Shown here: one piece after another, positions 32,161 to 40,044 of the stretch
Layout of the letters: every line of letters begins with the position of its first letter
Position numbering within the stretch: position 1 is the stretch's first letter
Program-made: the position numbers and the translations under genes
The notes under the pieces: generated by a model
The model's input: the letters and a program-made list of their open reading frames with translations, nothing else
Told to the model about the DNA's origin: nothing
Database searches by the model: none
DNA from: Bacteroidota bacterium
GTDB taxonomy: Bacteria > Bacteroidota > Bacteroidia > UKL13-3
Direction: 5' to 3'
DNA length: 64,000 nucleotides
Assembly: GCA_027484685.1 (NCBI GenBank)
Contig: JAIXSO010000014.1
Coordinates: forward strand, 1 to 64,000

Positions 32161-33519
32161 TTATAGTTTAAATTCTTTTAAATATGCTGGTGTTTCTTCT
32201 AAACTATTCATGTATTCCAAAGTTTCTTTTTTTCTAATTAAATGAGGTTTACCTTCCATATCAATAATAACTACATTTGGTCTCATTGAAATAAATTGCA
32301 TCCATTGAGTCATATTATAAGCTCCTACAGTATGAACTACAACATTATCACCTTTTTTCATTGGAGGTAAAGTAACATTTTCACGAATTACATCAATATT
32401 CATGCATAAAGGTCCATATATTACCGAATCTTCAGTATAATGGCTAAATTCCTGTGCTGGAGAAATTTTATGTTCATACCAAAAAGAAGTAAACAATAAA
32501 TTTACACCAAAATCCATAATGGTTGCTTTTCTTCCATCACTTAATCGTTTATTTGCCAGCACAGTTCCCAATAAATATCCAGCATCATCAACCAATGAAC
32601 GACCACTTTCAAGAATTAATAAAGGCAATTCATCTTTACTGTAATCAGAATTTAATAAAGCGGAGCAAATTGCTTCAGCATAATCATCAAAAGTTGGAAC
32701 AGTATCAGCACCCATCAGGTAAGAACCTTTAAGTGTATTGCGTGAAGCAAACCCACCACCCATATCAATATAAGTTATGTTTTTACCAAACTTGGCTTTT
32801 ATATGAAATGCCAAATCGGATAATTTAGTAGCCGCCACCGCATAAGCACTTGGGGTTAACATAAATGTACCAATATGGGTATGCAAACCAATTAAATCCA
32901 TTTTATCGGTTAAGATAATTTTGTTAATAGCATCCCAAGCTTGGCCACTTTCGTAGTTAAAACCAAATCTATCCCACATTGGGTACACACCTGTATCCAT
33001 ATTAACCCTAATGGCTACTTTTGGACGTTTTTTTAACTCTTCAGTTAATTCAATTATTCTGTATAATTCATCTAAATGATCTATATGAATCATTGACTCA
33101 TTGTTGATGGCTAAAATCAAATCATCATCGGTTTTATCAGGACCGTTGAATATGATTTTATTGCCGGGCACACCATTTAATAATGCCTTATTATACTCAA
33201 AGCCCGAAACTACTTCAGACCAGCTTCCTTCTTGATGAAACACACTGCAAATGGCATTGTTATAATGTGTTTTATAACTCCAAGCAAATTGAACCTTTGG
33301 GTACCTAGTAGTAAATGCGCGTACTGCATCTTTATAAGTTTTGCGTAAGGTAGTTTCGCTCATTACAAATAATGGCGAACCAAATTCTGCAATTAAATCT
33401 TTAACCTTTGCACCATCAATATTGGTAAATGGAGTGTACTCAGTGCGAGTTCCGTACTTGTTCATTACGCCAGTATTTAGTTTTTTAATAACGGGTCTTT
33501 CGTATCTAATTTTTTCCAT
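32161..33519 (-). CDS. Type III PLP-dependent decarboxylase (diaminopimelate/ornithine decarboxylase-like)
   Basis: 452 residues with the alanine-racemase-like barrel and the decarboxylase C-terminal domain. PLP lysine K83 (FAWSYKTHYN), H213/H215 in LHTHIGTF, the glycine loop DMGGGFAS near 253, E304-S-G-R307 for the phosphate, and the C-terminal cysteine C372 and aspartate D376 (GPLCMNIDVI) with Y401. In diaminopimelate decarboxylases the segment after this cysteine is usually CESxD, where the glutamate binds substrate; here it reads CMNID, so the substrate may not be diaminopimelate. It shares a strand and a spacer full of palindromes with an ATP-grasp ligase and a PqqD-like protein, suggesting a small-molecule or peptide-modifying pathway instead of lysine synthesis. 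Confidence 0.85.
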   Translation of the reverse strand: MEKIRYERPVIKKLNTGVMNKYGTRTEYTPFTNIDGAKVKDLIAEFGSPLFVMSETTLRKTYKDAVRAFTTRYPKVQFAWSYKTHYNNAICSVFHQEGSWSEVVSGFEYNKALLNGVPGNKIIFNGPDKTDDDLILAINNESMIHIDHLDELYRIIELTEELKKRPKVAIRVNMDTGVYPMWDRFGFNYESGQAWDAINKIILTDKMDLIGLHTHIGTFMLTPSAYAVAATKLSDLAFHIKAKFGKNITYIDMGGGFASRNTLKGSYLMGADTVPTFDDYAEAICSALLNSDYSKDELPLLILESGRSLVDDAGYLLGTVLANKRLSDGRKATIMDFGVNLLFTSFWYEHKISPAQEFSHYTEDSVIYGPLCMNIDVIRENVTLPPMKKGDNVVVHTVGAYNMTQWMQFISMRPNVVIIDMEGKPHLIRKKETLEYMNSLEETPAYLKEFKL

Positions 33520-33538
33520 TGTTTTTATATTTTTTTTG

Positions 33539-33780
33539 CCTCCAGCTAAAGCGTGGGGCTATTGATTTATTTGCTTTTATTTTTTTTCCACTAGTGGCTA
33601 TTGATTCTTCAGCTAAAGCAGGAGTCTATTGATTTATTTGCCTTTATTTTTTTCCACCAGCTAAAGCAGGTGGCTATTCATTCTCCAGCTAAAGCAGAAG
33701 GCGATTGATTTAATTGCCTTTATTTTTCCACTAGCTAAAGCTAGTGGCTATTTATCCTTCAGCTAAAGCAGGTGGCTATT
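33539..33780. repeat. Array of seven CAGCTAAAGC palindromes
   Basis: Units at 33539-33563, 33588-33602 (shortened), 33607-33630, 33654-33678, 33683-33706, 33728-33752 and 33757-33780 follow the plan CCACYAGCTAAAGCWRGTGGCTATT. The best is the perfect CCACTAGCT-AA-AGCTAGTGG. Several units are separated by a T-rich linker with TTTATTTGCCTTTA. The spacer between the two genes (303 bp) consists mostly of this array. Confidence 0.85.
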
Positions 33781-33822
33781 TATTTTTAATTGCTAATTAC
33801 TTATTGCTAATTGCCTATTAAA

Positions 33823-34869
33823 TTAAAGCTCCCCTACCGTTGATATCTGTTCAAATTCTTTTAAATCTACAATCATATCGTACGAGTATCGTATAAACAT
33901 TTTACCTATTTCGTAATTGCCAAATGGCTCCACATTTTGCCCTAAAGCTAGTTTTACCAAAGCTTCAGGTTGATTATGTCCGCAGCCTGCGGCTAAATAT
34001 ACCCAAGCTGGAAAACGCGGATTTATTTCCAATAAATAGTATTTGTTTTCAGCAGTTTTTATAAACTCTAACTCCATTCCACCACGCCATTTTGATGATG
34101 AAATTACTTTATTGGCAATGTCAACCAACTCGCTATCGTCAAGCGAAATACCTGCCCAAGCTTTGCCTTTATCGGTAATAAAAAGCTTACGCATAGGCAC
34201 TGCGCTTATGGCATTTCCCTTCCCATCGCCAAGGGCTGTAACGTTAACTTCGCTGCCAAACACATACTCTTGTATTATAATGGGCAAACCCCACTTAGCA
34301 CTTAGTTTATTAAAATAATTGGCCACTTGTTCAGCATTATAAGCTATATAAGCCTCATAAAACCTTCCTTTAACTACCATGGGGTAAGTAAATTCGGTGG
34401 TTATACTTGGAATTTCGGCAGTGCTAAACATCATTTTACTATAAGGAACACTTACTCCATGTGCCTCGCCAAACTCATACAAATTGGCTTTGTGGCGCTC
34501 ATCAAATTGCTCCTGAGTAGGTAAAAACATACTTATTCCTAAATCGGCCTTTATCCTATTTTCTATTTTCATAAAATTGGCCAATTCAGCATCAAAATTT
34601 GGAATAATTACATCCAATTTTTCTTGATTATGAATATAAGTTAATCGTTCTAACAAGGCATCAATTCCTGCACTTGGTAAGGGTATTTGGTACGATTTAT
34701 CAACCAAATGATGCATATATAAACCCGGTTCTAGGGTTTCGTAACTAAGGCCAATAATCCTTACATCAAAGTTGTTACTTTCTTTTAAAGCCCTAATAAC
34801 AGGTATTCCAGGCCCAGGACTATCTATATTATTAAGACCCGATACAGCAACAGTTATTTTTTGTTTCAT
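33823..34869 (-). CDS. ATP-grasp ligase (carbamoyl-phosphate synthase large-subunit-like)
   Basis: 348 residues. An N-terminal Rossmann-like part (TVAVSGLNNIDSPGPGIPVI) is followed by the ATP-grasp fold: a lysine on VVKGRFYEAYIA, the hinge QEYVFGSEVNVTALG and the metal-binding MELEFIKTAENKYYLLEINPRFPAW, which contains the conserved E and N-x-R. Members join a carboxylate to an amine or thiol through an acyl-phosphate. Neither the acid nor the acceptor is visible. It sits 23 bp after the PqqD-like gene and upstream of the PLP decarboxylase on the same strand. Confidence 0.88.
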   Translation of the reverse strand: MKQKITVAVSGLNNIDSPGPGIPVIRALKESNNFDVRIIGLSYETLEPGLYMHHLVDKSYQIPLPSAGIDALLERLTYIHNQEKLDVIIPNFDAELANFMKIENRIKADLGISMFLPTQEQFDERHKANLYEFGEAHGVSVPYSKMMFSTAEIPSITTEFTYPMVVKGRFYEAYIAYNAEQVANYFNKLSAKWGLPIIIQEYVFGSEVNVTALGDGKGNAISAVPMRKLFITDKGKAWAGISLDDSELVDIANKVISSSKWRGGMELEFIKTAENKYYLLEINPRFPAWVYLAAGCGHNQPEALVKLALGQNVEPFGNYEIGKMFIRYSYDMIVDLKEFEQISTVGEL

Positions 34870-34892
34870 AAATTAATTTTGAAGGTTAAAAA

Positions 34893-35141
34893 CTATTCGC
34901 TGTCATCGCCCACTTGGTTATTAACTAGCATCATTACAAAATCGTAATAATCTTTTTCAAAGGTTGATTCATCGGTAATGTATTTTCCCAAAATTGCTTT
35001 TCTTATTTCATCTTTGCTTTTTTCATCCTTAAGCATACGGATTATCTCCAATCCTATTGGATTGGTGCTAAATGAATCGCCTGTGGTTGGATTAAATATA
35101 AATCCTGATTCACTTATAGCCACATTCTTTTTAATTTTCAT
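34893..35141 (-). CDS. PqqD-like small protein
   Basis: 82 residues. The pattern SGFIFNPTTGDSFSTNPIG, followed by EIIRMLKDEKSKDEIRKAIL and a terminal helix, matches the PqqD fold (winged-helix-like carrier/chaperone that presents a peptide to modifying enzymes). No radical SAM gene is nearby, so the peptide-modifying partner would be the ATP-grasp enzyme 23 bp downstream. The protein could be a carrier to which the ligase attaches an amino acid, but that is inference. It ends in an acidic tail (VGDDSE). Confidence 0.78.
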   Translation of the reverse strand: MKIKKNVAISESGFIFNPTTGDSFSTNPIGLEIIRMLKDEKSKDEIRKAILGKYITDESTFEKDYYDFVMMLVNNQVGDDSE

Positions 35142-38496: not shown

Positions 38497-38901
38497 TTAA
38501 ACTATTCGTTCCATCATTTTTTCGGGCGATTTTAATGCGATAAAACCAAATTTTTGATATAAATAATGTGCATCGGTAGTGGCTAAACGCCAAACTTTTA
38601 CGCTTTTAAGTTCAGGATAGTTTAATATGAAACCCATTAATTGGGTTGAATATCCTTGCTTTTGGTGTTGCTCTGTAATAAATACATCCAATAAATAAGC
38701 AAAAGCCACATAATCGGTAACCACTCGCGCATAACCTATTTGTTGGTTATTTAAATAAATACCAAAATTCAGGGAATTGTCAATACAAATTTGAACTTCC
38801 TTTAATGATCGGCCTTTAGCCCAATAAGTATTGCTAATAAACGCATGAATAAAGTTTAAATCCAATAGATTTTTATTGGTAGAAATGGTGATGGTGTTCA
38901 T
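38497..38901 (-). CDS. GNAT-family N-acetyltransferase
   Basis: 134 residues with the GNAT core: a beta pair (FGIYLNNQQIGYARVVTDYV), the strand FAYLLDVFI and the acetyl-CoA loop EQHQKQGYSTQLMGFIL, then RLATTDAHYLYQKFGF near the end, as in standard GNAT enzymes. The acceptor is unknown. It is the last gene of the murF-alr operon, 17 bp after the membrane-bound acyl-carrier-like gene. Confidence 0.85.
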   Translation of the reverse strand: MNTITISTNKNLLDLNFIHAFISNTYWAKGRSLKEVQICIDNSLNFGIYLNNQQIGYARVVTDYVAFAYLLDVFITEQHQKQGYSTQLMGFILNYPELKSVKVWRLATTDAHYLYQKFGFIALKSPEKMMERIV

Positions 38902-38918: not shown

Positions 38919-39626
38919 TTAATCAATACCTAAATCTCTTGTTAAACTTTTTTCGGGTGTAATTTCAGCTAAATCAATTCCCATCTTGTTACTGATAATT
39001 TCCCTAATTACTATTTCTAAATCATTTTTGGTTATTCCTTTTTCATTGGTAATTACTTTAAAATTCTTCCCGTAAACATTTTTAGTAAGTTCTCCAAAAT
39101 CATTGGGTACAAATTTGGTTCTAAAAGGAGTAAAAGCTTTTGATAATAAGCTTGTCAGCAAAATAGCAATTAAACTATAACCATAAACCCAATAGGATGC
39201 ATCATAAATAATCACCATAAACAATTCAACTAATAAAGAACCTAAAATGGTTTTTATTCCAAAAGCATTTAAAATAATATTATAGGGTTTTCGTAACTCC
39301 AATTGCGGTAATTTAAGTTGTAATTTATCTTCTAGTTGTTGCCAAATTTGCCTCCTATTTTCAAATGGAATAATGTCAGCAATTTTAGTTTTAGGTGTGA
39401 TACTTGCCTTATCTACTTTAATATTTTCAACAACGGCTTGCCTTATTTTATAAAATACACTTTGCGTATAACATTCTGCAATGGCTAATTTTTTATTTGA
39501 AACATGTTTCCATGCACAATCATAAAAATCTTGAACGGTATCTATTTTCTCGGCTTCCAAGTTTGAAATTTCAATACCCAAAGTTTCTTCCACTTCTATA
39601 ACTAATTCAACACTATCTAAACCCAT
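38919..39626 (-). CDS. Membrane protein with a split, circularly permuted acyl-carrier-protein fold
   Basis: 235 residues. It starts MGLDSVELVIEVEETLGIEI, which is the DSxE phosphopantetheine site and second helix of an acyl carrier protein, without the first helix. It ends VIREIISNKMGI, then TPEKSLTRDLGID and stop, which is the first helix and loop of an ACP, cut just before the serine. The two ends together make one ACP. Between them are a cytoplasmic segment (about 50-120) and two membrane helices (GIKTILGSLLVELFMVIIY and YSLIAILLTSLL, about 122-165). S5 would be the pantetheine attachment site. The start is 1 bp after the preceding stop. Whether it is modified is unknown. Confidence 0.75.
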   Translation of the reverse strand: MGLDSVELVIEVEETLGIEISNLEAEKIDTVQDFYDCAWKHVSNKKLAIAECYTQSVFYKIRQAVVENIKVDKASITPKTKIADIIPFENRRQIWQQLEDKLQLKLPQLELRKPYNIILNAFGIKTILGSLLVELFMVIIYDASYWVYGYSLIAILLTSLLSKAFTPFRTKFVPNDFGELTKNVYGKNFKVITNEKGITKNDLEIVIREIISNKMGIDLAEITPEKSLTRDLGID

Positions 39627-39627
39627 T

Positions 39628-40044
39628 TTACCCTAAATTTTTAAAATAGTTTCTAGTTAAAACCTTTTTCAATTCACGTACTATAATTTCATACGAAATA
39701 ATTTGTTGTTGATTCTCAAAATTGGTCAAGCTACGATTATTAGTCGGAGTTTGATTGTTATCGGACGAATTAAATTGTAGTGCTTTTTTAATATTCCTTT
39801 CCGAAAGGTCAATTCTATATAAAATGGATTGTAATTTACTTTTATCGTTAGCTAATAATTGTTTTACCTCTATGGTTAAACCATTCATTAATTGTTCGTA
39901 AGCAGTTTCTGTATTTCCATCAAACTGAATATTGATATTATACATCCCAAAATCTTTTTGAATTTGCGCTATGGTTTCGTTAATAATGTTTTCTTTATTA
40001 AGTAGCTGCGCAATATTTTGATGGGTAATTTCGGGTAAATTCAT
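39628..40044 (-). CDS. Hypothetical protein in the murF-alr operon
   Basis: 138 residues, soluble and helical, with an Asn/Thr-rich break near residue 95. There are no recognisable motifs, signal or membrane segment. It lies 9 bp after murF-alr and 1 bp before the acyl-carrier-like membrane gene, an arrangement that suggests a partner for either, but no function can be named. Confidence 0.65.
   Translation of the reverse strand: MNLPEITHQNIAQLLNKENIINETIAQIQKDFGMYNINIQFDGNTETAYEQLMNGLTIEVKQLLANDKSKLQSILYRIDLSERNIKKALQFNSSDNNQTPTNNRSLTNFENQQQIISYEIIVRELKKVLTRNYFKNLG

Follow-up and report, generated by a model that had tools for sequence, protein, structure and literature searches.

A putative circularly permuted acyl carrier protein unit, lacking the pantetheine serine, in a predicted membrane protein of Bacteroidota

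Introduction

In a 64,000-nucleotide stretch of a Bacteroidota genome (contig JAIXSO010000014.1, positions 1 to 64,000; hereafter, the window), an open reading frame on the minus strand (38919..39626, ATG to TAA) codes for a protein of 235 residues whose N-terminus resembles the second half of an acyl carrier protein (ACP) and whose C-terminus resembles the first half. Is this a permuted ACP, or the debris of one, and does it carry the pantetheine arm? The initial annotation had proposed that the two ends complete one ACP when joined, with two membrane helices between them. Two explanations were offered: a true circular permutation, which would place a pantetheine arm at the membrane, or two half-domains left by a rearrangement.

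Results

The termini match the two halves of one ACP

In its native order, the protein matched ACPs in two separate pieces. PF00550 aligned residues 207-235 with profile positions 3-30 (E 3.9e-6), the NCBIfam ACP models matched residues 3-36 with their second half, and the top match in the PDB, the Aquifex ACP 2ehs, covered residues 203-235 with its positions 2-34 and residues 3-36 with its positions 36-69. We also built a rejoined construct in which the C-terminus was placed first, followed by the N-terminus with Met1 removed. The rejoined ends matched NF002148 (ACP) in a single ungapped stretch with 72.5 bits, above the cut-off of 71 (65.9 bits when Met1 was kept), and PF00550 with 41.9 bits (cut-off 20.8), while TIGR00517 gave 65.4, slightly below its cut-off of 70.45. 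Membership of the whole domain in PF00550 and NF002148 was reached only after this C-to-N rejoining.

As a reference for the rejoined alignment we used the host's own ACP, encoded in the same genome (locus L113). Residues 196-235 followed by residues 2-49 aligned with it without a gap, 30 of 59 positions being identical (51%). The score of the rejoined ends, 146, is the sum of the two parts (78 + 68), as compared with 78 for the native order and 64 for the best of 2000 shuffles. The C-terminal end falls at position 35 of AcpP and the N-terminal start at 35-36, with no gap or large overlap at the seam. That the two ends complete one ACP when joined is borne out by the ungapped match with the host's protein and by the NF002148 score.

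We call the two ends together unit A. Its second half, residues 2-49 (39480..39623, minus strand), corresponds to ACP helices II, III and IV, which AlphaFold2 places at residues 3-16, 22-26 and 31-43; its first half, residues 198-235 (38922..39035, minus strand), supplies helix I and loop I, and its last residue corresponds to Asp35 of the ACP. In place of the order I-II-III-IV of an ordinary one-chain ACP, helices II-III-IV come first, then another unit, and then helix I. A longer N-terminus that would restore an ordinary ACP was considered and ruled out, because the reading frame meets a stop three codons before the ATG and cannot be extended.

An additional ACP-like unit and a predicted membrane hairpin lie between the halves

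Between the halves of unit A lies a second, degenerate ACP unit (unit B), which the initial annotation had missed and into which a hairpin is inserted. Its first part, residues 50-112 (39291..39479, minus strand), would comprise a degenerate helix I, a loop and helix II, as judged by hhalign, Foldseek and conservation; its last part, residues 167-197 (39036..39128, minus strand), contains a helix-IV-like 'TVG-L' segment, predicted by AlphaFold2 as a helix at residues 177-187, and a linker. The first part aligned with ACP with an hhalign score of 28.5 (shuffled maximum 16.1). Once the hairpin was skipped, residues 50-112 and 167-197 followed the order of ACP in the alignment, through to helix IV, and the middle part as a whole scored 33.2 (best of 60 column shuffles, 18.4), at only 9% identity. 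The order along the protein is thus A(II-IV), B(I-II), hairpin, B(IV), A(I). Unit B also holds the residues that are invariant in the family, C52, Q55, F58, Y59 and R91, the first four in a C52-x-x-Q-x-x-F-Y pattern. The strongest conservation in the family is in unit B, and not on the ACP face of unit A.

The AlphaFold2 model, computed from an alignment of 30 rows, had an ACP-like helix order with a pLDDT of 81 and a pTM of only 0.51. When residues 1-47 were deleted from the model, nearly all of the best 50 Foldseek matches in the PDB were ACPs, mostly over 49-59 columns and with probabilities of 0.5-1.00 and E-values above 0.05. Since the model without the N-terminal half still matches ACPs, the middle unit must be the matching part. 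Unit B is accordingly modeled with an ACP fold, with a weak sequence match and with Foldseek E-values above 0.05. A search among viral folds returned only ACP-like or chance matches. In a second AlphaFold2 run without the N-terminal half, the pLDDT of the C-terminal half fell from about 82/85/87/72 to 71/80/76/61 per block, whereas that of the middle ACP-like unit was not lowered and rose to 90-94. The drop agrees with a predicted contact of the termini and is supportive, not decisive.

The hairpin itself occupies residues 113-166 (39129..39290, minus strand). The hydropathy peaks, which begin at residue 115, and the two AlphaFold2 helices, at residues 113-141 and 147-164, uphold the two membrane helices that had been proposed between the halves. 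With a hairpin, the two termini end up on a common side of the membrane, presumably in the cytosol. Taken together, the sequence alignments and the models make it very probable that the protein consists of two ACP units, with A permuted around B and the hairpin inserted in B between helices II and IV.

The layout is conserved and the seam is displaced in one subgroup

About 45 loci, all from Bacteroidota as far as searched, share this layout, which is kept at 20-25% identity across the phylum; homologues with the same termini thus exist. None of the full-length relatives is an ordinary ACP with an intact second half. The gene is sporadic, with 10 full-length matches among 395 Bacteroidota genomes. 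A 195-residue homologue (L018) and a frameshifted copy from Persicobacter (L055) begin with MGLD(S/T)V, end with DLGID and have no hairpin, and another relative (L017) ends with DDLHID. The Persicobacter copy was the only match in a search of plasmids.

A subgroup of 33 loci, recognized by the motif CT(S/T)QQAFYKLR (subgroup II), has its seam elsewhere. Its members start at about AcpP position 26-30 (22 or lower in a few), as in MKNHLGIDPDD (L090) and MNAHHLGIDHEE (L071), and end at about position 29, the C-terminal ends of a few having been placed by eye. The loop segment LGID/NID has therefore moved from the C- to the N-terminus. Relative to the window type the seam, at about AcpP 26-30, is displaced by about 6-9 residues, and the ends still make one ACP. 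Of the sequence arguments that the two ends would fold together, the strongest is that they stay complementary although the seam has moved. Three copies look broken: those at L055:5998-6577 (the Persicobacter plasmid) and L086:5821-6503 (subgroup II) are frameshifted, and another subgroup II copy, at L078:5965-6498, has an early stop.

When compared with the intact copy of a sister species (L058), the gene showed a dN/dS of 0.2 overall and of 0.07 in the N-terminal half. Frameshift or decay of the window copy was ruled out by these values and by the intact sister copy. Because of the dN/dS of 0.2 and the conservation across Bacteroidota, the view of the gene as two half-domains left by a rearrangement is contradicted. 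The exact complementarity of the ends, the common termini of the homologues, the seam that moved and stayed complementary, and purifying selection all favor the other explanation offered initially, and we read unit A as a true circular permutation of an ACP, cut exactly at the pantetheine site.

The modification serine is absent and the recognition face is retained

The gapless alignment places DLGAD-S-LDTVEL of the host ACP over DLGID-G-LDSVEL of the window protein. Gly2 (codon at 39621..39623, minus strand) thus stands where E. coli AcpP has its pantetheine serine, Ser36, as it does in the family alignment, and the serine of the DSL motif is replaced by this glycine both in the window protein and in the MGLD relatives. 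Ser5 (39612..39614, minus strand) lies three residues inside helix II, on the position of AcpP Thr39, and in the Persicobacter homologue, which begins with MGLDT, it is itself a threonine. Since the alignment puts Ser5 on Thr39 and Gly2 on Ser36, Ser5 is not the pantetheine site, and the arm that had been assigned to it has to be given up. Most homologues in the family alignment have no modification serine: of 28 aligned rows of subgroup II, 12 have Pro at this position and 5 have Ser, the others having D, T, I, H, E, G, W or Y. Unit B has no DSL motif. Because the modification serine is absent from both units, the protein should carry no acyl chain.

The acidic residues D235, D4, E7, E13 and E14 are retained. 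They match D35, D38, E41, E47 and E48 of AcpP, the acidic residues that ACP partner enzymes read.

The neighborhood does not indicate a function

The gene lies between a 138-codon open reading frame (39628..40044, minus strand), which is upstream of it and next to murF-alr, and a gene for a GNAT acetyltransferase (38497..38901, minus strand) downstream. The 138-residue protein is unannotated and matches no Pfam family; it follows murF-alr in 8 of 10 sampled genomes of the genus and has weak matches elsewhere in the family. The permuted gene, in turn, is present in 2 of the 10. In a sister genome (G006) the same murF-alr genes, with 99% identity at the C-terminus of Alr, and the same 138-codon frame are followed directly by the GNAT gene, with a gap of about 10 bp: a clean empty site with no ACP gene. 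Beside 35 other loci no recurrent partner gene was found, and in other genera the neighbors are unrelated. Because of the empty site and the unrelated neighbors of homologues, the position in the operon is uninformative on function, and the lipid or cell-wall role that it had been taken to hint at loses its basis.

Discussion

The reading that we favor, and to which we would give about an even chance, is that the protein is a membrane-tethered ACP mimic without pantetheine that binds an ACP partner. Unit A would close into a four-helix ACP fold, presumably on the cytosolic side of the membrane, and it likely does so in cis. Since the ACP recognition face is retained, unit A is probably an ACP mimic. 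More tentatively, it might dock an ACP-binding protein, or withhold that protein from real acyl-ACP. The specific activity of the protein itself would reside in unit B, in the C52-x-x-Q-x-x-F-Y pattern and R91. Docking through unit A may be the wrong choice of surface, because conservation in the family is highest in unit B and not on the face of unit A. The serine kept at the modification position in 5 of 28 subgroup II rows counts against a pantetheine-less mimic, and the lack of a recurring partner gene beside the loci counts against a mimic role. It is highly improbable, in addition, that removal of Met1 leaves the free amine of Gly2 at the pantetheine position, where the membrane-bound mimic would present it, free or acylated, to ACP-dependent enzymes.

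Four other explanations were weighed, and are taken here in falling order of likelihood. The ACP units could be a scaffold that no longer has any contact with ACP partners, the function residing in the conserved patch of unit B, for example as that of a small accessory effector of mobile cassettes (in defense, as a toxin or in stress). The placement of the invariant residues in unit B fits this, as does the cassette-like nature of subgroup II, two genera sharing exactly 836 bp at 99.6% identity; but no family member matched the PADLOC defense models, no partner recurs, and unit A of the window lineage still shares 51% of 59 aligned residues with the host ACP, the N-terminal half having the lowest dN/dS, so that we consider a scaffold of this kind somewhat unlikely. 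Less probable again, and on the whole unlikely, is completion in trans, in which the C-terminal helix I would pack on helices II-IV of the next molecule to build up head-to-tail chains, or dimers with swapped domains, on the membrane. The halves do stand apart, with all of unit B and the hairpin between them, and complementarity of the ends fits closure in cis and in trans alike. The hairpin, through which the two ends face the same side, and the single-chain deletion of the N-terminal half, which suggests mutual dependence, speak for cis closure, although both are compatible with trans as well.

A working carrier, in which a phosphopantetheinyl transferase modifies Ser5 or another residue and a pantetheine arm stands at the membrane, appears very unlikely: the GLDSVEL string resembles the LGxDS motif of carriers and a few subgroup II members (5 of 28 rows) do have Ser at the true site, but Ser5 falls on the Thr39 position, the modification position is Gly2, Persicobacter has Thr in place of Ser5, and most relatives have no Ser at the true site. 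Barely credible, finally, are two half-domains without a joint function. The sporadic occurrence of the gene (10 of 395 genomes) is what such a remnant would predict, and it is set against a dN/dS of 0.2 with the N-terminal half most constrained, and against a layout that is kept at 20-25% identity across the phylum and whose ends stay complementary when the seam shifts.

Both permutation by duplication and ACPs as structural subunits are already known; no earlier permuted ACP was found, either among the solved structures searched in the PDB or, for a natural one, in the literature searched, which lay mostly outside subscription journals. AcpP (TIGR00517/NF002148) shares with the window protein the four-helix ACP sequence, at 51% identity over 59 residues when rejoined, and the acidic residues of helix II; in contrast to AcpP, the window protein is permuted, has no pantetheine serine and is fused to a second ACP-like unit and a hairpin. 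The matches of the model without its N-terminal half include AcpM on MmpL5 or EmbA, AcpP on MukBEF and ACP with ISD11. These are precedents for an ACP fold in docking or structural roles, membranes included, although as subunits of complexes they are separate, unpermuted proteins with the modification serine present. PF10501 (mitoribosomal L50) gave a weak Pfam match at residues 11-71 (E 0.007, below cut-off); L50 has an ACP-like fold, is a soluble ribosomal protein and is, to our knowledge, not permuted. The classic permutation by duplication is swaposin, the plant-specific insert of aspartic proteinases (PMC3320104). Swaposin is likewise a small domain of four helices, permuted in that its chain starts and ends midway through a repeated unit, but it belongs to an unrelated fold family, and the window protein keeps a whole repeat unit and a hairpin between the halves.

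ACP is among the most conserved small proteins. Here its defining residue is lost, the face that partners read is kept and a tie to the membrane is predicted, so that the protein-recognition role of ACP becomes testable separately from its chemistry. The family would also be a clear case of permutation by duplication, with a seam whose position has shifted between subgroups.

Additional observations

Subgroup II genes lie in cassette-like units (L065:120-955 and L069:2501-3335), and similar flanks were seen at L062, L064, L066, L068, L070, L081 and L082. Sphingobacterium composti and Faecalibacter rhinopitheci have such a unit in common; their copies are 99.6% identical across exactly 836 bp and are bounded by GTTACC...GGTAAC-type flanks. 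An imperfect palindrome of about 130-140 bp stands at the 3' end of the cassette and recurs several times in L065. An Rfam scan of the cassette loci gave no match. By these features the units appear to resemble integron cassettes; with IntegronFinder 2.0, very few integrons have been reported in Bacteroidetes (PMC9024848). At another locus, the gene for a tyrosine recombinase of 381 residues (L057:213-1358) precedes a subgroup II gene by about 115 bp, and by eye the extra domain of IntI integrases is absent from the recombinase.

Elsewhere in the window, a PqqD-like protein (PF05402; 34893-35141) is encoded beside what appear by eye to be an ATP-grasp protein and a decarboxylase (32161-35141); together they may form a small gene cluster for a peptide ligase or an amino-acid ligase.
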